From an uncultured Clostridia bacterium (GTDB lineage: Bacteria; Bacillota; Clostridia; Oscillospirales; Ruminococcaceae), in NCBI GenBank assembly GCA_947589035.1, contig CANPYZ010000027.1, forward strand, positions 1-35,088: a DNA stretch of 35,088 nucleotides. Direction: 5' to 3'. Numbering within the stretch: the stretch's first letter is position 1; each line of letters starts with the position of its first letter. The position numbers and the translations under genes were made by a program. Under the pieces are notes generated by a model. That model worked only from the letters and a program-made list of their open reading frames with translations, ran no database searches and had not been told where the DNA came from. This document shows, piece after piece, positions 20,102 to 35,088 of this stretch.

Positions 20102-21571
20102 TCACATTCCAAACCGAATTTTATTTCTTTCGGATTCTTTCACTTTACGAAGAAGTTCCTGAAATTCCTCAACTATCTGAATTTCATCATCAGAATCAGT
20201 TGTACTCATGTAGGAAGTGAAAATTGTTTCCAGTTCAAAATAGTGTTCATAAATGAATCCGGAAAGCGTATCAACAATGGGTTTTTCCTGCTTAGAATCA
20301 TTCTCTGAAAAGTTGCTACTTGTGTCAACTTTTTCAGCGGGCTTTTCTTTCCGTGCAGAATCATTCTCTGAAAAGTTGCTACTTGTGTCAACTTTTTCAG
20401 TAGGCTTTTCTTTCCGTGCAGAATCATTTTCCAAAAAGTTGCTACTTGTGTCAACTTTTTCAGTAGGCTTTTCTTTCCGTGCAGAATCATTTTCCAAAAA
20501 GTTGCTACTTGTGTCAACTTTTTCAGTGAGATTTTCTTTCTGTACAGAATCATTCTTTGAAAAGTTGCTGCTTGTGTCAACTTTTTCAGTGAGATTTTCT
20601 TTCTGTACAGAATCATTCTTTGAAAAGTTGCTGCTTGTGTCAACTTTTTCAGTAGGATTTTCTTTCCGTGCAGAATCATTCTTTGAAAAGTTGCTACTTG
20701 TGTTAACTTTTTCAGTGAGATTTTCTTTCTGTACAGAATCATTCTTTGAAAAGTTGCTACTTGTGTCAACTTTTTCAGTAGGATTTTCTTTCCGTGCAGA
20801 ATCATTTTCCGAAAAGTTGCTACTTGTGTCAACTTTTTCAGTGGGCTTTTCTTTCTGTGCAGAATCATTCTCTGAAAAGTTGCTACTTGTGTCAACTTTT
20901 TTCTGTTTGATTCCTTTTGGTGTTACATTACCTAAATCACCTTGCTGCACGAGCTTTTCCTGTTCTTCTTCATCTAACTTTGCAATTTCATTTGCCGTAG
21001 AAATAGAAATTTCGCCGCTTTCTACTGCTTCTTTTACAGAAGGAATGGCATTATGTTTAACATTTTGCATTTTTCCGACCTGTGATGCGGAAACACCAAG
21101 ACATTCCGCTAAAGTATCTCTGGTACGTCCGAATTTTTCTCCGGCACTCTTTTTGTTCCTCAAAATTCTTTCGAGGATTTCATAGCTTTTCCAGAGTTCC
21201 GCATCAGAAATCTGCCTTGCTGAAACGTTCATCAGAACAATGTCAAGTATTTTACTGTCATCATCCGTGTAGTCCTGCACCAGACAGGGGAGATAACGGG
21301 AAATATTTTCCCCGTTATCCAGAAGATACTGCACAGCTGCTTTTCTTCTGTGACCGCTGATGATTTCATATTTGCCCGTTCCTAATGGGCAGACAATCAA
21401 ATTATCCTTAACACCACCCTGACCGAGAATTGTTTCAGCAAATTCTTCAATCCGGTTCAGGGCAAAGAAATTATTCGTGGATTCCTGTAATTCATCAATG
21501 TCAATCATCTGGATACTATCAGTTAATGTATTTCCGACAATGGCATTGAGATTGGCAAACATCGTTTTCAT
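20102..21571 (-). CDS. parB: ParB-family partition protein with a long tandem-repeat region
   Basis: The protein of about 489 residues has the ParB/Srx nuclease-like N-terminal domain, including KYEIISGHRRKAAVQYLL, then the helix-turn-helix region (ERILRNKKSAGEKFGRTRDTLAECLGVSASQVGKMQNV). Nine 21-residue repeats beginning KVDTSSNF follow, plus a partial tenth, and a short C-terminal helical domain. ParB binds centromere-like sites and works with ParA. I place the start at ATG 21571, which overlaps the parA stop as ATGA and has GGGGG seven bases upstream; the frame also extends to a TTG at 21577. The repeat region is low-complexity, charged and probably disordered. Confidence 0.9.
   Translation of the reverse strand: MKTMFANLNAIVGNTLTDSIQMIDIDELQESTNNFFALNRIEEFAETILGQGGVKDNLIVCPLGTGKYEIISGHRRKAAVQYLLDNGENISRYLPCLVQDYTDDDSKILDIVLMNVSARQISDAELWKSYEILERILRNKKSAGEKFGRTRDTLAECLGVSASQVGKMQNVKHNAIPSVKEAVESGEISISTANEIAKLDEEEQEKLVQQGDLGNVTPKGIKQKKVDTSSNFSENDSAQKEKPTEKVDTSSNFSENDSARKENPTEKVDTSSNFSKNDSVQKENLTEKVNTSSNFSKNDSARKENPTEKVDTSSNFSKNDSVQKENLTEKVDTSSNFSKNDSVQKENLTEKVDTSSNFLENDSARKEKPTEKVDTSSNFLENDSARKEKPTEKVDTSSNFSENDSARKEKPAEKVDTSSNFSENDSKQEKPIVDTLSGFIYEHYFELETIFTSYMSTTDSDDEIQIVEEFQELLRKVKESERNKIRFGM
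20294..20899 (-). repeat. 63-bp tandem repeats inside parB, each with a DNA dyad
   Basis: Nine full 63-bp units (20333-20899) and a partial tenth (20294-20332) encode KVDTSSNF plus 13 more residues each. Every unit starts AAAGTTGACACAAGTAGCAA, and AAAGTTG pairs with a downstream CAACTTT across 11 bases. The dyad is present in all but one unit, where G is changed to A, while the centre varies (AGT or AGC). This may be simple repeat expansion or a cluster of protein-binding sites. Confidence 0.9.
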
Positions 21572-22239
21572 GAACAAACCCCCATGATTTCATTAGTCAG
21601 ACTTTCATAGGCATTGACAATTTTCCATGAAGTCTGTGTCTGCGGAACACCTCTTTCACGGAAATAGGCTTCAATCGGCAATCCCGCTTTCTGACTTTCA
21701 CGGACAGTTTTAGAATAGGGAATGACTGACTTCATCAGACGGTTCTGCAAAATTCTGCGGAATTCTTCAATGATTTCTGCATCATTTTCCGCATGATACA
21801 TAGTGACAAACACACCGCCGAGTTTCACACCCTGTTTGTTGATTTCATCTGTAACTTTTCTCAGACCGGAAATTTCAAATTCTCCCAGAATTGTAGGGAC
21901 ATAGACCACATCACAATGGCGAATGATGATTCGGACTTCTTCACTCATTGTCGGCGGTAAATCAAACAGAATGTAATCAAACGTTTCCCATTCCTGTTCA
22001 GTTACATGAAGATAACGTTCCCATGTAGTATGGAAAATGTGCGGATAGTCCGTTGGCAGAACAGGGGAAGCACTTTTTCCAGCCATAAAGAAAGTGAAAC
22101 AGTTTTCCTGTGTATCACAGTCCACAACAAGTACCTTGTATTCACGTTTCTGTAACCCATATGCCAAGTTAATGACAGAAGTTGTTTTTGCTACTCCTCC
22201 CTTGTTGTTAAAAATACCGATTTTTCTGATTTTTTCCAT
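21568..22239 (-). CDS. parA: ParA-family partition ATPase
   Basis: The protein of about 223 residues begins MEKIRKIGIFNNKGGVAKTTSVINLAYGL, with the deviant Walker A box KGGVAKTT. It continues with VLVVDCDTQ (Walker A'), YILFDLPP (Walker B) and GGVFVTMY. It should drive segregation of the element together with the adjacent ParB. The start at ATG 22239 puts the Walker box near the N-terminus, as usual, behind AAAGGTAAGAG. A longer frame from 22284 overlaps the rep gene and is less likely. The end overlaps the parB start. Confidence 0.93.
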   Translation of the reverse strand: MEKIRKIGIFNNKGGVAKTTSVINLAYGLQKREYKVLVVDCDTQENCFTFFMAGKSASPVLPTDYPHIFHTTWERYLHVTEQEWETFDYILFDLPPTMSEEVRIIIRHCDVVYVPTILGEFEISGLRKVTDEINKQGVKLGGVFVTMYHAENDAEIIEEFRRILQNRLMKSVIPYSKTVRESQKAGLPIEAYFRERGVPQTQTSWKIVNAYESLTNEIMGVCS

Positions 22240-28036: not shown

Positions 28037-28198
28037 ATGAAAGATGCAGAATTTAATTTTTGGCGTGAATTAAAGCAAAACTGCCAATTAATGACAAAAC
28101 AGCAATATAACACGCTTAAGGGGCAGGCGAAAAAAGGACAGATTTTTGATGCCCGAAAAGGCATGAAAAAAATTCTGATGCGGAGGAATATGAAATGA
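28037..28198 (+). CDS. Small phage protein (53 aa) between terminase and methylase genes
   Basis: A 53-codon frame from ATG 28037, eight bases after GAGGCAA, encodes KDAEFNFWRELKQNCQLMTKQQYNTLKGQAKKGQ and a basic end. This FW-xx-LK ... MTKQQY-TLKGQA pattern is familiar from small genes in this position of Clostridia phages. Its stop TGA overlaps the next ATG (28195) as ATGA. The function is unknown. Confidence 0.65.
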   Translation: MKDAEFNFWRELKQNCQLMTKQQYNTLKGQAKKGQIFDARKGMKKILMRRNMK

Positions 28199-28524
28199 AA
28201 ACAACAACGGATTTTCAGCTTGTTGAGGTCGAGAAACTCATTCCCTACGTCAACAATGCCCGTACTCACAGCAAGGAACAAATCGCTAAATTGCGTTCTT
28301 CTCTTCGGGAATTTGGTTTTGTTAATCCAATTATCATTGATAAAAATTATAACGTCATTGCAGGGCATGGCAGACTTTTAGCGGCTAAAGAAGAAGGAAT
28401 AAAAGAAATTCCGTGCGTGTATGTAGATTATCTTACAGAGGCACAGAAAAAAGCCTACATTCTTGCCGATAACCGTATGGCTTTGGATGCGGGCTGGGAC
28501 GATGAACTTCGACTTGTTTTGACA
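28195..28524 (+). pseudogene. ParB-domain DNA modification methylase, N-terminal fragment
   Basis: The fragment encodes a ParB-like nuclease domain (VEKLIPYVNNARTHSKEQIAKLRSSLREFGFVNPIIIDKNYNVIAGHGRLLAAKEEGIKEIPCVYVDYLTEAQKKAYILADNRMALDAGWDDEL), the normal N-terminus of phage DNA modification methylases. The methyltransferase domain should follow, but homology stops near 28520 and unrelated AT-rich DNA begins. The frame happens to stay open into the next gene, so the two would be joined by a careless gene call. The product cannot methylate DNA. Confidence 0.85.
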
Positions 28525-28594
28525 AAAAAAATTGTTAATTTGTGCAACATTAACAGTTTTTTTTGGTTATTTATACAAAATAACTACAAAACTA

Positions 28595-28623
28595 TTGACA
28601 AGAAAGAAATTTTGTGCTATCCT
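28595..28623 (+). promoter_or_regulatory. Promoter of the dockerin cargo gene
   Basis: TTGACA (28595-28600), 17 bp and TATCCT (28618-28623) lie 70 bp before the cargo start. The promoter is inside the inserted block, so the cargo is expressed independently of phage genes. Confidence 0.65.
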
Positions 28624-28692
28624 ATACTTAGAAAAACTAAATTTTCCCTATATATTATACATTTAGGGTTGATTCTATGTGAGGTGGGCTTT

Positions 28693-31600
28693 ATGAAATA
28701 CAAAAGGTTAATCAGTATTTTTTCTGCAATAGCAATAATGTGTTCTGGCTTGTCTTTTCCAAGTACGTTTAATGACTACAGTATTAATGCCGAGGCTGAT
28801 TTTTCGTTGAAAGATAGCTATCCAAACTCAGCTAATTACATTGCAGACTGTATCATATTTGGTTTTATCAATCCAAATTCCGGCAATTATTCCACAAGTT
28901 TTATTAAATATTCCGATGTTATGGATAAGGCATTTTCCTATGAACAACTTGCAAATAATGTTATGCAAGATGAAGGTATTGTTATTTCAAGTGCATTGTG
29001 GGATACTTTCAGCAAAATTCTCAGTGGTAAAATTTCTTCTGGTGAAGTTCGTCAAGAACAAATTTATGAAGCTTTTTTAATGGATTATCTTACTTTTTCG
29101 GAAGGTTCAACTGAAAATAGTACAACCCTTGATAAAATGGGAGCATTTGCTGATAAAACAATGAAATATGAAGATAAAATCCTCCAGCAGCTTCTTGAAA
29201 AGGGAATTGCTTCTGACGAAAAAGATCTCGCTAATTTAATTGAACAAAGTGATTCATTAAATGATAAAAAAATAGTCGAAGCAATGAAAGAACTTGACTG
29301 GGAAAAAGAACTTGCAGGATATGTGGAAATTGCAGATGGTATTACTGAAGTAGCAACAAACGCAGCAGATTACTTTGAAGCTCTTACAAAAGCTTTGGCT
29401 TTGAAAGAAGTAAATGATGAAAGAATCGTTTTCTTGAAGTCAATGGCAGAAGTTGCTTCTGATAATAAAGCATTTCAAACTGCTGTGGAAAATATCATTG
29501 AAACAATTGAAAGTTCCTATGCCGAATTATCTCTTCAGGAAGCCACAGATACTATGGGAGCTTTTGCATGGGACAAATGTTGGGATAGTATAAAAAAACA
29601 GATACCCTGCTTTTCGGTATATGATAATGCTCACGATGCACTGAATTATATTTTTAATTCAGATAGTCTTTCTGAAAATAATATTCGTATTATAATGCAA
29701 TATACAGTTGGGCAATATGCAAGACAAGTTCTTATGGCAGCACATACTACTTATCAAGCAGAGATAACGGATGAACATGCTGCTGCTTTTGTTGAAGCAT
29801 ATAAAAACTATCTTGCCTATCAGGGATACTCTTCCGAATGGGCTAAAGAATTTGTAGAAGATGTTCCATTTTCAAGTGATGCGGTAGTTGATGAATGGCT
29901 TACAAAATTGAACTCAGATATAAATTATTGCAGCAATTGTATTGTTATTGTAAATAATACAGTGAAGCTGTACGATAAAAAAATTTATGATTATGATGAA
30001 AATGATTCATCTGATGATAACAATATTGAAAGTACATTCAATGGGCATTCTTATCAAATTTTTGATAGTTCAATGACATGGAATGAGGCAAAAGCATATT
30101 GCGAAAATCTTGGTGGACATCTGGTTTCTATTACGTCACAAGAGGAACAAGCCTATATCACTGAATTGCTTAATAGTCATGATAATACAAAAAATTGCTA
30201 TTGGATTGGATTATCTGGTTCAAAAGATAATTGGCAGTGGGTGGATAACGAAACAGATGAATACTATAATTGGGCACCAAATGAACCAAACAATCAGGAT
30301 AGCAGAGAAAGCTACGTACATTTATTTGGTAATGTATGGACTGGTGGCAAGGGAATAAAGGAAATCGGTCAATGGAACGATGCTTCAAATGATGGAGCGG
30401 GATATTCGCATGATTTTTATGCTTTAGACAATTTTGGATTTATTTGTGAATGGGACAATACTACTAATTTAACTGAACCACCAATGATATTCAACGAACA
30501 TTCTTATCAAATTTTTGACGTTTCAATGACATGGAGTGAAGCGGAAGCATATTGTGAAGATCTTGGTGGACATCTGGTTTCCATTACAACACAAGAAGAG
30601 CAAAAAGCAATCGAAGAATTATTAGAAAGTGGTACAAGAAATAATTACTGGATTGGGGCTATGAAGGATAGTAATAACGGTTGGAACTGGGTAACTGGGG
30701 AAGATTTTAAGTATCAAAACTGGGGAAATAACCAGCCTGATAATTTTCATGATATTGAAAATGCTCTTATGATATATCGAAACACCAATCCAAAAGATAT
30801 TAAAGCTTCAAAATTTGGAGCATGGAATGATTTACGAGATGATGGAACTTGTAATGGAGAAAGTTTTTTTGGAGTTGAAAACTTTGGTTTCATTTGTGAA
30901 TGGGACAACACTACTAATTCAGGTGAAATTGAATCATCAGAAATTTCTGGTGATTGCAACAATGATGGTACTTTTTCTGTAACTGATGTTGTTCTTCTCA
31001 AAAAATGGATTTTATCTGTTCCCAATACAACACTTGCTAATTGGAAAGCTGCTGATTTTTATGAAGATAACCAGCTTAATGTATTTGACCTTTGCTTAAT
31101 GAAGCAAAAACTAATTGAAACTACTAAAATTGAAAAAAGTGGTGCGATTATCATAAGAACAGCTGAAGACCTGTACAATGTTCGAAATAATCTGTCTGCT
31201 GATTATATTATCGCAAATGATATTGACCTTACTGGATATGACTGGATACCGATTGGCACATTAGATCATCCGTTTACTGGTTCAATAGATGGAAAAGGTT
31301 ATACAATAACTGGTCTTTCTATTGATATTCAGAAATCAGATAGTAATTATGAAGCAGCAGGATTATTCGGCGTTATTAATGGTGGTAATATATCACAAAT
31401 TAAACTTGAAAATGTTAGCATATATATGGATGTAAATTGGGATAGCAAATCGTTTTGCTACGTTGGTGGAATTGCAGGTGAAATATATAGCACAAAGATT
31501 AACAAATCTTCTGTAACAGGAAATTTGGAAGCAAAAGGAACAAATAAAACTTTTGCTCGTGTTGGTGGTATCTGTGCAAGTTCAGTATCAAATTCGGAAG

Positions 31601-32043
31601 TATTTGACTGTTTCGTTAATGCACAATTAAAAGCAGATGCTGATTCTGCTAATACAATGGCTGGTGGAATTGTTACATGGCTCGATAAATCAACTATCAA
31701 CAATTGTATTGCATTTGGTAATATATTAGCTTCAAACAAACATTCATATGTCTATTCAGGCGGAATTAATGCTTCTGGTACTGGCAGCTCCGTGAATAAT
31801 TGTATTTCTATGGTCAATAGCATCATAACATCTGGTTCCTCAAGATATGTTCATCCTGTCAGCAATTTTGCAAGCATTAATAATTGCTTATCTGCAAATG
31901 ATATAGAAGCGAATTTTACATCAAATAACAATGTAATATTAATTGAAAGAAATGATGCAGTTAAACAAGAAATTTACGAAAATCTTGGATGGGATTTAAT
32001 TACAACATGGATTTTAACAAAAAATGGTATATATCTTAGATAA
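28693..32043 (+). CDS. Secreted dockerin protein with two C-type lectin domains and a GLUG-like region
   Basis: The 1116-residue protein starts at ATG 28693 after GAGGTGG, with a signal peptide (MKYKRLISIFSAIAIMCSG...). Residues about 40-440 are a helical region not recognised. Two C-type lectin-like domains follow (about 449-590 and 599-739), each with HSYQIFD, WSEAEAYCEDLGGHLVSIT and an FGFICEWDN end. A type I dockerin (about 752-808) has GDCNNDGTFSVTDVVLLKKW and ADFYEDNQLNVFDLCLMKQKL. The tail (about 816-1100) has GLUG-like repeats (LTGYDWIPIG, FTGSIDGKGYTITGL, AGLFG, VGGIAG, AGGIV). The protein would be carried on the cell surface or cellulosome and bind glycans or proteins. It is a cargo gene within the prophage and its base composition is more AT-rich than its neighbours. 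Confidence 0.85.
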   Translation: MKYKRLISIFSAIAIMCSGLSFPSTFNDYSINAEADFSLKDSYPNSANYIADCIIFGFINPNSGNYSTSFIKYSDVMDKAFSYEQLANNVMQDEGIVISSALWDTFSKILSGKISSGEVRQEQIYEAFLMDYLTFSEGSTENSTTLDKMGAFADKTMKYEDKILQQLLEKGIASDEKDLANLIEQSDSLNDKKIVEAMKELDWEKELAGYVEIADGITEVATNAADYFEALTKALALKEVNDERIVFLKSMAEVASDNKAFQTAVENIIETIESSYAELSLQEATDTMGAFAWDKCWDSIKKQIPCFSVYDNAHDALNYIFNSDSLSENNIRIIMQYTVGQYARQVLMAAHTTYQAEITDEHAAAFVEAYKNYLAYQGYSSEWAKEFVEDVPFSSDAVVDEWLTKLNSDINYCSNCIVIVNNTVKLYDKKIYDYDENDSSDDNNIESTFNGHSYQIFDSSMTWNEAKAYCENLGGHLVSITSQEEQAYITELLNSHDNTKNCYWIGLSGSKDNWQWVDNETDEYYNWAPNEPNNQDSRESYVHLFGNVWTGGKGIKEIGQWNDASNDGAGYSHDFYALDNFGFICEWDNTTNLTEPPMIFNEHSYQIFDVSMTWSEAEAYCEDLGGHLVSITTQEEQKAIEELLESGTRNNYWIGAMKDSNNGWNWVTGEDFKYQNWGNNQPDNFHDIENALMIYRNTNPKDIKASKFGAWNDLRDDGTCNGESFFGVENFGFICEWDNTTNSGEIESSEISGDCNNDGTFSVTDVVLLKKWILSVPNTTLANWKAADFYEDNQLNVFDLCLMKQKLIETTKIEKSGAIIIRTAEDLYNVRNNLSADYIIANDIDLTGYDWIPIGTLDHPFTGSIDGKGYTITGLSIDIQKSDSNYEAAGLFGVINGGNISQIKLENVSIYMDVNWDSKSFCYVGGIAGEIYSTKINKSSVTGNLEAKGTNKTFARVGGICASSVSNSEVFDCFVNAQLKADADSANTMAGGIVTWLDKSTINNCIAFGNILASNKHSYVYSGGINASGTGSSVNNCISMVNSIITSGSSRYVHPVSNFASINNCLSANDIEANFTSNNNVILIERNDAVKQEIYENLGWDLITTWILTKNGIYLR

Positions 32044-32410: not shown

Positions 32411-32449
32411 AGCCGATTCCGCAAAATTCAATTTCTGAAAAGAAGCAAG

Positions 32450-32496
32450 CCGCATTCTGCTTTCGGAATGCGGTCTGCCTGTTTTCAGAAACAGGC
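32450..32496 (+). other. Tandem perfect hairpins in an intergenic region
   Basis: CCGCATTC (32450-32457) pairs with GAATGCGG (32466-32473), and GCCTGTTT (32477-32484) pairs with AAACAGGC (32489-32496) around TCAG. Two perfect 8-bp stems are separated by three bases, with no T run. Positions 32411-32620 contain only this and the promoter at 32552-32580. Confidence 0.65.
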
Positions 32497-32551
32497 ATAA
32501 TTCACACAATTTATCGAAAAATCGCCTTGAAATGATTGTCATTACTCACAC

Positions 32552-32580
32552 TTGCTATTCCGGAAAAGTTATGGTAATAT
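32552..32580 (+). promoter_or_regulatory. Promoter of the first small DUF gene
   Basis: TTGCTA (32552-32557), 17 bp and TAATAT (32575-32580) in the context GGTAATATT. The same GGTAATATT -10 context recurs at the promoter 33595-33623. Confidence 0.6.
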
Positions 32581-32637
32581 TGGTATAACGGAACGGGAAA
32601 CCGAGCCGAAAAATACCGAAATATGGAGGAAAACACC

Positions 32638-33000
32638 ATGAACGAGAAAATCAGAAACTACTTTTCCGGGCTTGCAGAGCAGGTAAAAACAAGCGGAAAA
32701 AAGCTGACCTACGGCGAACAGGAAGCCTACTGGAATTACCGCCGCAGCCTTGAGAACGACAACGGCGAATTTGAATGCAGCGAGCTGCCTTGGGCAACGG
32801 ACATGAGCGACTTTGTGGACACGCTGCGCAAAGCCGGAGTGAAGACCATTGTGGTCACGGAACACTCTTCTGCCCTGATGGAAAACCTGCACAAACTTGC
32901 GGTGCAGGGCTGCACGCTTGACGGGCTTTGCACGGTGATTCACCAGAACATCTGGGGAGAGCCGGAAAACGTCTACGGAATCCGCTTCACACTGAACTGA
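32638..33000 (+). CDS. Small phage-type protein, DUF7698-like
   Basis: The protein of about 120 residues starts at ATG 32638, seven bases after GGAGG. It reads MNEKIRNYFSGLAEQVKTSGKKLTYGEQEAYWNYRRSLE, then WATDMSDFVDTLRKAGVKTIVVTEHSSALMENLH and a short C-terminal strand part. This matches my recollection of a small Firmicutes phage or mobile-element family (DUF7698), without known function. It is more GC-rich than its neighbours. A strong hairpin follows in the gap to the next gene. Confidence 0.65.
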   Translation: MNEKIRNYFSGLAEQVKTSGKKLTYGEQEAYWNYRRSLENDNGEFECSELPWATDMSDFVDTLRKAGVKTIVVTEHSSALMENLHKLAVQGCTLDGLCTVIHQNIWGEPENVYGIRFTLN

Positions 33001-33006
33001 ACACTG

Positions 33007-33043
33007 AGCCGAGGGCGGCAAATCCGCCGCCCTGAAAACGGCT
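33007..33043 (+). other. Strong GC-rich hairpin before the DUF3846 gene
   Basis: AGGGCGGC (33012-33019) pairs with GCCGCCCT (33026-33033), and outer AGCCG (33007-33011) pairs with CGGCT (33039-33043). It lies directly upstream of AAAAGGAG, the ribosome site of the next gene, without a T run, so it may govern translation or mRNA stability. Confidence 0.65.
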
Positions 33044-33060
33044 TGAAAAGGAGAATTATT

Positions 33061-33417
33061 ATGCATATATTGATTGTTGAACCCGGAAAACACCCAAGGG
33101 AAGCCGAAATTGAACATACGCTTGAGAATTTGCAAAACATTGTCGGCGGATACATTCAGGCGTTGTACCCCTACGATGACCCTGTTGCCATTGTGTGTGA
33201 TGACGAGGCAAAGCTGAAAAACGACACCCATTGGAACAGACTTCTTCCGGAATGCCATGACATCATCAAGGGAACATTTTTCATCTGCGGTCTTGGTGAA
33301 GAAGATTTCACCGATTTACCGCCGGAATTGATGGAAAAATACAAAAATCGTTTCTGGAATATTGAATATTTTTTTCCAACACCACAAGGTTTACTGCCGA
33401 TTATTTTTGAACATTAA
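33061..33417 (+). CDS. DUF3846 family protein
   Basis: The 118-residue protein starts at ATG 33061, with AGGAG about eight bases upstream. It reads MHILIVEPGKHPREAEIEHTLENLQNIVGGYIQALYPYDDPVAIVCDDEAKL, the DUF3846 signature (VEPGK.P....I...L..LQ..VGG.I). The function is unknown; the family is common in mobile elements and phages of gut Firmicutes, often in small-gene clusters like this one. Confidence 0.85.
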   Translation: MHILIVEPGKHPREAEIEHTLENLQNIVGGYIQALYPYDDPVAIVCDDEAKLKNDTHWNRLLPECHDIIKGTFFICGLGEEDFTDLPPELMEKYKNRFWNIEYFFPTPQGLLPIIFEH

Positions 33418-33428
33418 GCCATAATTTC

Positions 33429-33517
33429 CGCCACGTTCGCCTGTGTGGGCTTGCAGGAATTTTCCTGCAAAGTTACCCCATTTCGGAGTAACCCCCGACA
33501 CAAGCGGACGTGCGGCG
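33429..33517 (+). ncRNA. Candidate structured RNA: long stem with a three-way junction
   Basis: The outer stem is 33429-33449 with 33494-33517: ACGTTCGC pairs with GCGGACGT, TGTGT with ACACA, and the GGG at 33447-33449 with CCC, broken only by one mismatch and small bulges. Inside sit two hairpins: TTGCAGGA (33451-33458) with TCCTGCAA (33463-33470), and GTTACCCC (33472-33479) with GGAGTAAC (33485-33492). Junction bases are single nucleotides on each side. About 35 base pairs in 89 bases is far beyond chance. No known family comes to mind, and it could also act as a DNA structure. Confidence 0.6.
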
Positions 33518-33594
33518 TTTTGAAACATCGCAAATTACACAACAATTCCGGAAAATTTTTCTTTATGTTTGTTACAGTTATTTTTCAAAAAAGC

Positions 33595-33623
33595 TTGATT
33601 TATAGCGAAAAATACGGTAATAT
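33595..33623 (+). promoter_or_regulatory. Promoter of the second small DUF gene
   Basis: TTGATT (33595-33600), 17 bp and TAATAT (33618-33623) in the context GGTAATATT, the same -10 context as at 32552-32580. Confidence 0.6.
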
Positions 33624-33676
33624 TACAGTACCGGAAGGCAAACAGCCTGCGGAAAAATTTTCAGGAGATTACAACA

Positions 33677-33916
33677 ATGTGGACTGAAGGAGAAATTTTA
33701 ATTCCGAGCGAAAACGGAGAAAATACCCCGATACGGTATTGGGCAAAGGTTTACGCCAAAAACAGTCAATTCGGAATTGAGGGCGGAAAAATCAGCAAAC
33801 TGATGCTGAAACAAAATAGTGAAATTGTGTACAATTACGACAGAGGGCTTGATGTTCCGCCGCAGACACCGGAAGCGGATACAACATTGGCAATTCTGCT
33901 GTACCATTTCAAATAA
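33677..33916 (+). CDS. Small phage-type protein, DUF7678-like
   Basis: The 79-residue protein follows AGGAG and starts MWTEGEILIPSENGENTPIRYWAKVYAKNSQFGIEGGKISKLMLKQNSEIVYNYDRGLDVPP. The W-EGEI-IPS and ISKLML-YDRG motifs match my recollection of a small family of gut-Firmicutes phages (DUF7678). The function is unknown. A strong terminator follows. Confidence 0.65.
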   Translation: MWTEGEILIPSENGENTPIRYWAKVYAKNSQFGIEGGKISKLMLKQNSEIVYNYDRGLDVPPQTPEADTTLAILLYHFK

Positions 33917-33923
33917 GATTCTG

Positions 33924-33957
33924 CGGAGAATGGCGATATTCAGCCATTCTCCGTTTT
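33924..33957 (+). terminator. Terminator of the DUF7678-like gene
   Basis: CGGAGAATGGC (33924-33934) pairs perfectly with GCCATTCTCCG (33943-33953) and is followed by TTTT. Confidence 0.85.
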
Positions 33958-33991: not shown

Positions 33992-35014
33992 TTGCGGAAA
34001 TTGAAAAATTACAAGCCGACAACATTTATGGCAGAAGATTCACACTATGATAAAAAATCTGCGGACTATGCGGTAAATTTTATCGAGTGTCTTTGCCACA
34101 CAAAAGGTACATGGGCGGGAAAACCGTTTGAACTTATCGACTGGCAGGAACAAATTATCCGTGACCTGTTTGGTGTCCTGAAACCGAACGGCTACAGGCA
34201 GTTCAATACGGCTTACATCGAAATTCCGAAAAAAATGGGCAAATCAGAGCTCGCTGCCGCCGTCGCCTTGCTCCTGACTTGCGGTGACGGTGAGGAGCGT
34301 GCAGAAGTTTATGGTTGTGCCGCTGACCGTCAGCAGGCAAGTATCGTTTTTGAGGTCGCTGCCGACATGGTGAGAATGTGTCCAGCCTTGAGCAAGCGGG
34401 TGAAAATTCTGACCGCTCAGAAAAGAATTGTCTATTTACCGACAAATAGCTTTTATCAGGTGCTTTCGGCGGAGGCGTACAGCAAACACGGTTTCAATAT
34501 TCACGGGGTGATTTTCGACGAGCTACACACGCAGCCTAACAGAAAGCTGTTTGACGTTATGACAAAAGGTTCAGGCGATGCCAGAATGCAACCGCTGTAC
34601 TTCCTGATAACGACTGCCGGAACAGACACGCACAGCATTTGTTACGAAACCCACCAAAAGGCAAAAGATGTTCTTGAGGGGCGAAAAATCGACAAAACTT
34701 TCTATCCGGTGATTTACGGTGCGGACGAATCCGAAGATTGGACTTCTCCGGAAGTTTGGAAAAAAGCAAATCCGTCACTCGGAATTACTGTAGGAATTGA
34801 TAAAGTACAGGCGGCTTGTGATTCCGCAAGGCAGAACCCCGGCGAAGAAAACGCTTTTCGGCAACTACGATTGAATCAATGGGTGAAACAATCCGTTCGC
34901 TGGATGCCAATGGAGAAATGGGATTTGTGTAAAGCTGATTTTGATGAAACTTTTCTTGAAGGGCGTGTCTGTTACGGCGGTCTGGATTTGTCCAGCACCA
35001 CGGATATTACGGCA
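33992..35014 (+). pseudogene. Phage terminase large subunit, interrupted by an IS at the right edge
   Basis: The gene starts at TTG 33992 after GGGAGGTGAG. It encodes a large terminase subunit with Walker A PKKMGKS (79-85), Walker B VIFDE (173-177) and the start of the nuclease domain (YGGLDLSSTTDIT, around 328-340). It powers DNA packaging and cuts concatemers. The expected continuation after DIT-A is lost at 35014, where the IS terminal repeat begins at 35016. Only about 340 of the usual 550 or so residues remain, so the prophage is probably defective. The frame happens to stay open through the IS start. Confidence 0.88.
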
Positions 35015-35015
35015 C

Positions 35016-35088
35016 GGCAACAGCATTTACTTTTTCACAAAAATATGATAAAATATAGGTATGAAGATACAAAAACTAACAGAGAAGC
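35016..35088 (+). mobile_element. Insertion sequence, left end with transposase start (same family as at 1-73)
   Basis: Positions 35016-35037 repeat, in inverted orientation, the terminal repeat at 52-73. Two possible transposase starts are seen: ATG 35045 (MIKYRYEDTKTNREA) and ATG 35061 (MKIQKLTEK). The window ends before the choice can be made. The insertion interrupts the large terminase gene after its nuclease-domain start. Confidence 0.65.

Follow-up and report, generated by a model that had tools for sequence, protein, structure and literature searches.

Cluster K mycobacteriophages carry 11-19 SAS repeats, about half of which have an added imperfect inverted repeat (ESAS) containing a putative SigA-like promoter, according to the available parts of two reports (PMC3203893, PMC11373665). 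Their role is given as unproved in the available part of a further paper (PMC12699233). As far as these texts go, the SAS and ESAS repeats resemble the element analyzed here in that each phage has many intergenic copies, almost all of them pointing the same way, and in that one gene in one phage is found without the repeat. However, an ESAS is 46-47 bp long, and its 15-17-bp repeats flank the SigA-like promoter upstream of the 13-bp SAS, whereas the present element is about 100 nt long and lies entirely before the promoter. Unlike the ESAS as described there, it also follows the stop codon of the previous gene and borders exchangeable cassettes. The SAS and ESAS repeats are the nearest described system in layout, and no sequence kinship is claimed.

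The attC sites of integrons, including phage-borne ones, likewise stand after genes in one orientation, are folded, have a variable centre and border exchangeable cassettes, as judged from the available text of one report (PMC9892861); the present element differs from attC as described there in having no R boxes and in that its cassettes have their own predicted promoters. An identity with attC was rejected, because the R boxes RYYYAAC and GTTRRRY were found in none of 51 copies on either strand. An integron integrase above the TIGR02249 cut-off was found in none of 15 records, some of which, being viral, may be fragments, and four had matches below the cut-off. The Correia elements of Neisseria were also compared. 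They are intergenic inverted repeats, about 104-157 bp long, whose conserved core is directional; they are present or absent between relatives and are in these respects similar to the present element, but they occupy varied chromosomal places, even inside genes, whereas this element is phage-borne and occurs on one strand per record in one kind of place (PMC2649163, available part). With regard to a Correia-like insertion, one presence/absence site was found here, while strand and place were constant. The morons of lambdoid phages are autonomous small genes, each with its own promoter and terminator. Unlike morons, the units described here stand many in a row and share a promoter module and a conserved boundary element.

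The window analyzed was a contig of 35,088 nucleotides (CANPYZ010000027.1) from an uncultured Clostridia bacterium of the Ruminococcaceae. The original prediction had placed in it a long-stemmed three-way junction between two small phage genes. The refolding of 33419-33527 yielded -48.7 kcal/mol (z -6.98), and none of 200 dinucleotide shuffles was equally stable, which bore out the folded structure. By fold and covariance model, the element occupied 33428-33517 of the plus strand and comprised an outer stem, the motif CCACGTT and two inner hairpins. The predicted outer stem of 20 pairs (4+8+8 with small bulges, 33428-33515), one 8-pair hairpin and the single-base junctions were recovered, while the second hairpin had 7 pairs (5+2) rather than 8. 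The CCACGTT motif (33431-33437) fell in unpaired columns of the family model and was mostly base-paired with the far arm in the fold of this copy. The covariance model, whose 30 source sequences included the window copy, matched 33417-33525 with 57 bits (E 4.4e-11). The claim that there was no T run did not hold, as TTTT occurs at 33518-33521, two bases 3' of the stem. A mechanical ORF of 80 amino acids (33445-33687) overlaps the element and is the only ORF of at least 60 amino acids on the same strand to do so; it had no match in Pfam, and a protein-coding reading of the element was therefore dropped. The element is apparently non-coding, as predicted. The closest relative found (L026) was 96% identical to the window copy and kept the outer stem; in the 8-pair inner hairpin it has lost one pair to a substitution, and hence the inner hairpins were not regarded as the conserved part.

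The neighbouring features all lie on the plus strand. The upstream unit starts with a predicted promoter (32552-32580; TTGCTA, 17 nt, TAATAT), read from the sequence and resembling the aligned promoter module. Its first gene encodes a DUF7698 protein of 120 amino acids (32638-33000; PF24753, E 2.5e-12), before which a leader hairpin GGAACGGGAAACCGAGCC was seen. The start of this unit (32430-32640) is similar to the others and has no element, showing two plain hairpins followed by the tail GGCATAATTCACACAA. The element was predicted to follow a DUF3846 gene, and this was confirmed: the gene encodes 118 amino acids (33061-33417; PF12957, E 2.3e-32), and its stop codon lies 10 nt before the element. 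Downstream of the element, the alignment shows a tail motif TTACACAAC at 33535-33543, whose counterpart in relatives reads about ATGTACACAAC. Further, a predicted promoter of the DUF7678 unit (33595-33623; TTGATT, 17 nt, TAATAT) was read from the sequence, the alignment and a promoter-module test, in which it was represented by L026; its -35 box begins 77 nt after the end of the element. A stricter promoter scan listed neither 32552-32580 nor 33595-33623. Near the start of the predicted transcript lies a leader hairpin CCGgaAGGCaaacaGCCTgCGG (33631-33652), read from the sequence, with similar leaders in the promoter-module test. The DUF7678 protein has 79 amino acids (33677-33916; PF24726, E 1.4e-27), and its search against viral contigs gave 23 relatives or loci. 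An ordinary hairpin followed by TTTT (33924-33957), read from the sequence and absent from the output of a simple scan, occupies the place 3' of the DUF7678 gene where other units have the element. Should the promoter at 33595-33623 be used, the DUF3846 unit would finish with the element on its 3' side, and the element would not be a leader of the next gene.

Similar structures were found in viral records. A sliding fold of the locus L003 revealed one at nearly the same distance from the DUF7678 gene as in the window. Its 5' arm shares 18 identical nt with the window copy, and its inner part differs; four copies occurred in this locus. A profile was built from 28 copies and the covariance model from 30, including that of the window. 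Over 46 partly overlapping loci, selected as known or expected carriers, the covariance model gave 95 matches in 77 distinct rows, two antisense matches coming from L027. Of 15 whole records, all except L022 matched at E<=0.01 (14 records); most of the 15 had also supplied sequences to the model. Each matching record had 1-6 strong copies (E<1e-8), all on one strand. One carrier is the named Ruminococcus phage NatCom_23091. The folded segment was concluded to be a single copy of a repeat that stands after many small genes in phages of Ruminococcus-type bacteria.

The element was rare in host genomes. The model matched 6 of 297 genomes of the window's family at E<=1e-3, and at the order level the window's own genome, with one copy, was the only one of 394 to match at E<=1e-4, a result obtained with stricter filters that miss weak matches. 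In a BLAST search of 396 family genomes, G387 had the sole near full-length copy besides the genome of origin, the matches of the other listed genomes being short. Against GenBank phages the window element had two weak matches (E 3). A 16-base pattern, which was too loose, was searched in genome contigs, and among the matches listed (119 stretches) profile copies were present only in L158 and L216. The DUF3846 protein gave 10 pattern matches and no relative in viral contigs. In Rfam 15 at the gathering threshold, the window yielded only a tRNA elsewhere and eight copy-bearing loci yielded nothing, in agreement with the prediction that no named family applies; a relaxed search of 33000-33700 gave sub-threshold matches only. 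A description of the element was not found in the literature covered, which consisted of titles and abstract openings and excluded bioRxiv and most subscription papers.

Further counts were made on a set of 51 copies. Only profile hits that scored at least 35 bits and reached profile position 105 were used; the 162 that qualified were reduced to 51 by dropping copies with short flanks and near-duplicates, which differed from another copy by fewer than 8 mismatches. The window copy was merged into L026 as a near-duplicate and was restored only for the census of single folds (52 copies). Across the family, the conserved parts were CCACGTT and GTGTGGGG in the 5' arm, the matching CCCCACAC in the 3' arm, and loop positions around CCTGCGgatAACTTGCCC; CACGTT reached 1.2-1.9 bits per position despite being outside the columns that the model pairs. 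The outer stem was formed in 44 of the 52 single folds, 32 of these having one inner hairpin and 12 having two. The three-way junction, which is present in the window copy as predicted, is therefore one variant, and it was rejected as the shape of the family.

Homologues with covarying stems were found, so that the condition named as refuting the original prediction did not occur; the covariation was present but modest. In one alignment the covariation score was 0.139 against 0.105 for shuffled alignments, of which 3 of 500 scored as high, and in the model-fitted alignment it was 0.153 against 0.113 (0 of 500); both tests favour themselves, because the structure tested was drawn from an RNAalifold consensus of a related alignment. 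In neither test did the number of pairs changed on both sides, or that of further pair types, exceed the shuffles, and RNAalifold gave no useful consensus for an initial alignment. Sliding the partner columns lowered the pairing, yet one slid control (-2) of the model-fitted alignment reached 69 double-change cells against 70. The median folding z of the 51 copies was -2.52 for the sense and -2.48 for the antisense strand, so that the strands were equal; z was below -3 in only 20 of 51 copies, and folding strength was moderate in the GC-rich ones. G.U exceeded A.C in the stems by 38 to 23 (p 0.07, rows not independent), which leans weakly towards an action as RNA.

The position of the copies was regular. 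The nearest upstream stop codon, taken from mechanical ORFs of at least 50 amino acids, lay within 20 nt of the element core in 27 of 51 copies, at 21-70 nt in 23 and farther away in one. A same-strand sigma70-like promoter (similar to TTGATA-N16-18-TAATAT) was predicted downstream in 38 of 51 copies, while shuffles gave a mean of 1.25 and a maximum of 3, and a mirrored control on the opposite strand gave 3 of 51; the other 13 copies had no promoter by the module test. The start of 34 of the 38 promoters fell 69-73 nt past profile position 100. The promoter was followed by a small leader hairpin and then by the gene. Each such unit is thus predicted to have a promoter of its own, and transcription would reach the element either within the preceding unit, at whose end it lies, or through read-through. 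By eye, the tail motif (about ATGTACACAAC) was also recognized in several units without the element, and hence it seems to be a part of the promoter module. The copies have the GC-rich hairpin after a gene that is expected of an intrinsic terminator, but a U tract directly after the stem is usually missing: at least four consecutive T just past the stem occurred in only 12 of 51 copies, and a plain intrinsic terminator was not demonstrated for this reason.

The element does not follow every unit. In L095, where two of 13 promoter matches (254, 6784) were set aside as spurious, 6 of 11 promoter units follow an element and the other five have other hairpins, two of them with a T run and one of them weak. 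In L005 the element occurs in 2 of 7 units and a third copy is partial. A different hairpin precedes the element in some units (L095 10176-10378, L005 2394-2620). Closely related phages differed from one another by entire units. At one orthologous junction the element is present in L095 and L003, whereas in L092 and L245 a short hairpin alone stands between similar flanks. Since units without the element end in other hairpins, the element is suggested to be one among several unit-end structures.

The slot before the DUF7678 gene was compared in nine aligned records, picked because their flanks matched and having the left flank in common. The DUF7678 family was confirmed in L003, L095, L104 and L086; L003 and L004 also came from the DUF7678 protein search. 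The slot was empty, with a single element, in four records (L104, L089, L158, L004). The left flank of this element was as that of the first element (E1) of a filled slot, and its right flank was of the type of the second element (E2) in L003, L095, L111 and L269; in L086 the right flank of E2 was of another type. Cargo of four kinds was present between E1 and E2 in five records: L095 has a single gene there, L003 has this gene together with an additional one, L269 and L111 have it with another gene in front, and L086 has a gene without BLAST similarity to the cargo of the other records. Three of the four kinds have one gene in common. Judged from the sequences, this pattern is the expected trace of direct-repeat recombination or of exchange at a dedicated site. 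A single switch point was not seen by eye in the aligned slot elements, and RecT was found in none of 15 records. Additionally, for 30 of 69 synteny junctions an end fell no more than 20 nt from the border of an element, compared with 2.4-4.7% of positions lying that close; these junctions came from 15 non-independent pairs of six records with four ends per junction, and alignments tend to end at repeats.

Based on these data, the original interpretation was partly supported: the element is conserved, structured and apparently non-coding, but the prediction had not recognized it as a multi-copy cassette-boundary repeat. Sequence comparison shows the family itself, its place after a stop codon and usually ahead of a predicted promoter, its single strand in each record, and the gain, loss and replacement of cassettes between two elements. 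We proposed, at about an even chance, that it is a structured boundary of transcription units which also serves as a recombination border of cassettes. Each cassette would open with a promoter and a short leader hairpin, continue with one or a few small genes and close with an end structure. Acting as folded RNA at the transcript's 3' end, the element would end or insulate the upstream transcript, and termination would perhaps be factor-assisted, because the U tract is usually absent. The repeated copies would let cassettes swap by homologous recombination; the element, being repeated among units, would therefore have become a border for their exchange. What began as a lone odd hairpin is now a recurring feature, open to testing, in a group of gut and rumen phages, in which a shared promoter module and boundary element would make accessory genes interchangeable units. 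The borders of the element offer a concrete handle for finding phage accessory cassettes, and they pose the question of whether structured intergenic repeats serve for ending transcripts, for exchanging genes, or for both.

The same 3' position could also be explained by RNA processing, where RNase III would cut or bind the long irregular duplex, or the duplex would block exonucleases, and transcripts would be separated or protected. Such a putative processing site is unlikely, though the outer stem in 44 of 52 single folds and the missing conserved U tract agree with it, and RNase III binds and cleaves the Correia elements of Neisseria (PMC2649163, available part); a generic duplex substrate would not need the conserved CACGTT and loop bases that lie outside the paired columns. 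The spread of a non-autonomous mobile repeat of the MITE or Correia type through these phages would account for the many copies, their imperfect terminal symmetry and the presence in L095 and L003 but absence in L092 and L245 at one junction. It is rather unlikely, given the single strand per record, the near-fixed promoter distance and the same place of the element in different phages. The predicted promoter, in turn, bears on two regulatory explanations. The start of 34 of 38 promoters at 69-73 nt past profile position 100 would suit a DNA control region of the downstream promoter, where a putative phage regulator would bind the element plus TGTACA-like motifs. This was held to be quite improbable, since promoter modules, several with the tail motif, exist without the element, and the fixed spacing may for this reason belong to the promoter module alone. 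A riboswitch or another leader regulator of the DUF7678 gene would be structured, conserved and placed about 250 nt upstream of that gene, as the element is in several phages, but a predicted promoter lies between them. The riboregulator of the original prediction is unlikely for this reason, and leader regulation of the DUF7678 gene is very hard to credit.

The exchange of cassettes could also proceed at the element as a site-specific recombination site, folded as a single strand and similar to attC, under an unknown recombinase. The position after stop codons in one orientation, the conserved arms with a variable centre and the gain and loss of cassettes from element to element are in line with such a site. 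It is nevertheless improbable, as the RYYYAAC and GTTRRRY boxes and an integrase above the cut-off are missing in all 51 copies and all 15 records, respectively, and homologous recombination between the repeats accounts for the same junctions; the slot element rows have no single switch point by eye. A broader form of this explanation was judged to be similarly improbable, namely an integron-like array without an integron, in which the cassettes bear promoters, the element is the dedicated recombination site of an unrecognised phage or host enzyme, and accessory genes are inserted, deleted and swapped at fixed slots.

Several other features were observed in the window and in related records. 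TGTACA- or TGTNACA-like motifs were seen by eye in L003 (4000-4110), L095 (9770-9900) and the window (33535-33640), where they recur in the tail, ahead of the -35 box and at the unit's start site; they could be operators of one phage regulator. In L005 (4236-4310) the tail motif TAATATACACAAC lies within a perfect hairpin (GCGGCGGGTGT/ACACCCGCCGC) and not after an element. In the window, a ParB N-terminal domain (PF02195) continues in one long frame (28195-32043) into repeats that looked lectin-like and dockerin-like by eye, as if another element had been inserted into a phage ParB gene, and phage-like sequence seems to restart at about 32230. A terminase large subunit gene (TerL_ATPase and TerL_nuclease) occupies 33992-35088 and is open at the contig end; it may be interrupted near 35020, as its final residues did not look like terminase by eye. 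Another frame, ParB-like by eye, contains ten imperfect repeats of the type VDTSSNFSENDSxxKE at 20102-21577, and overlapping reading frames are likewise open across this region.
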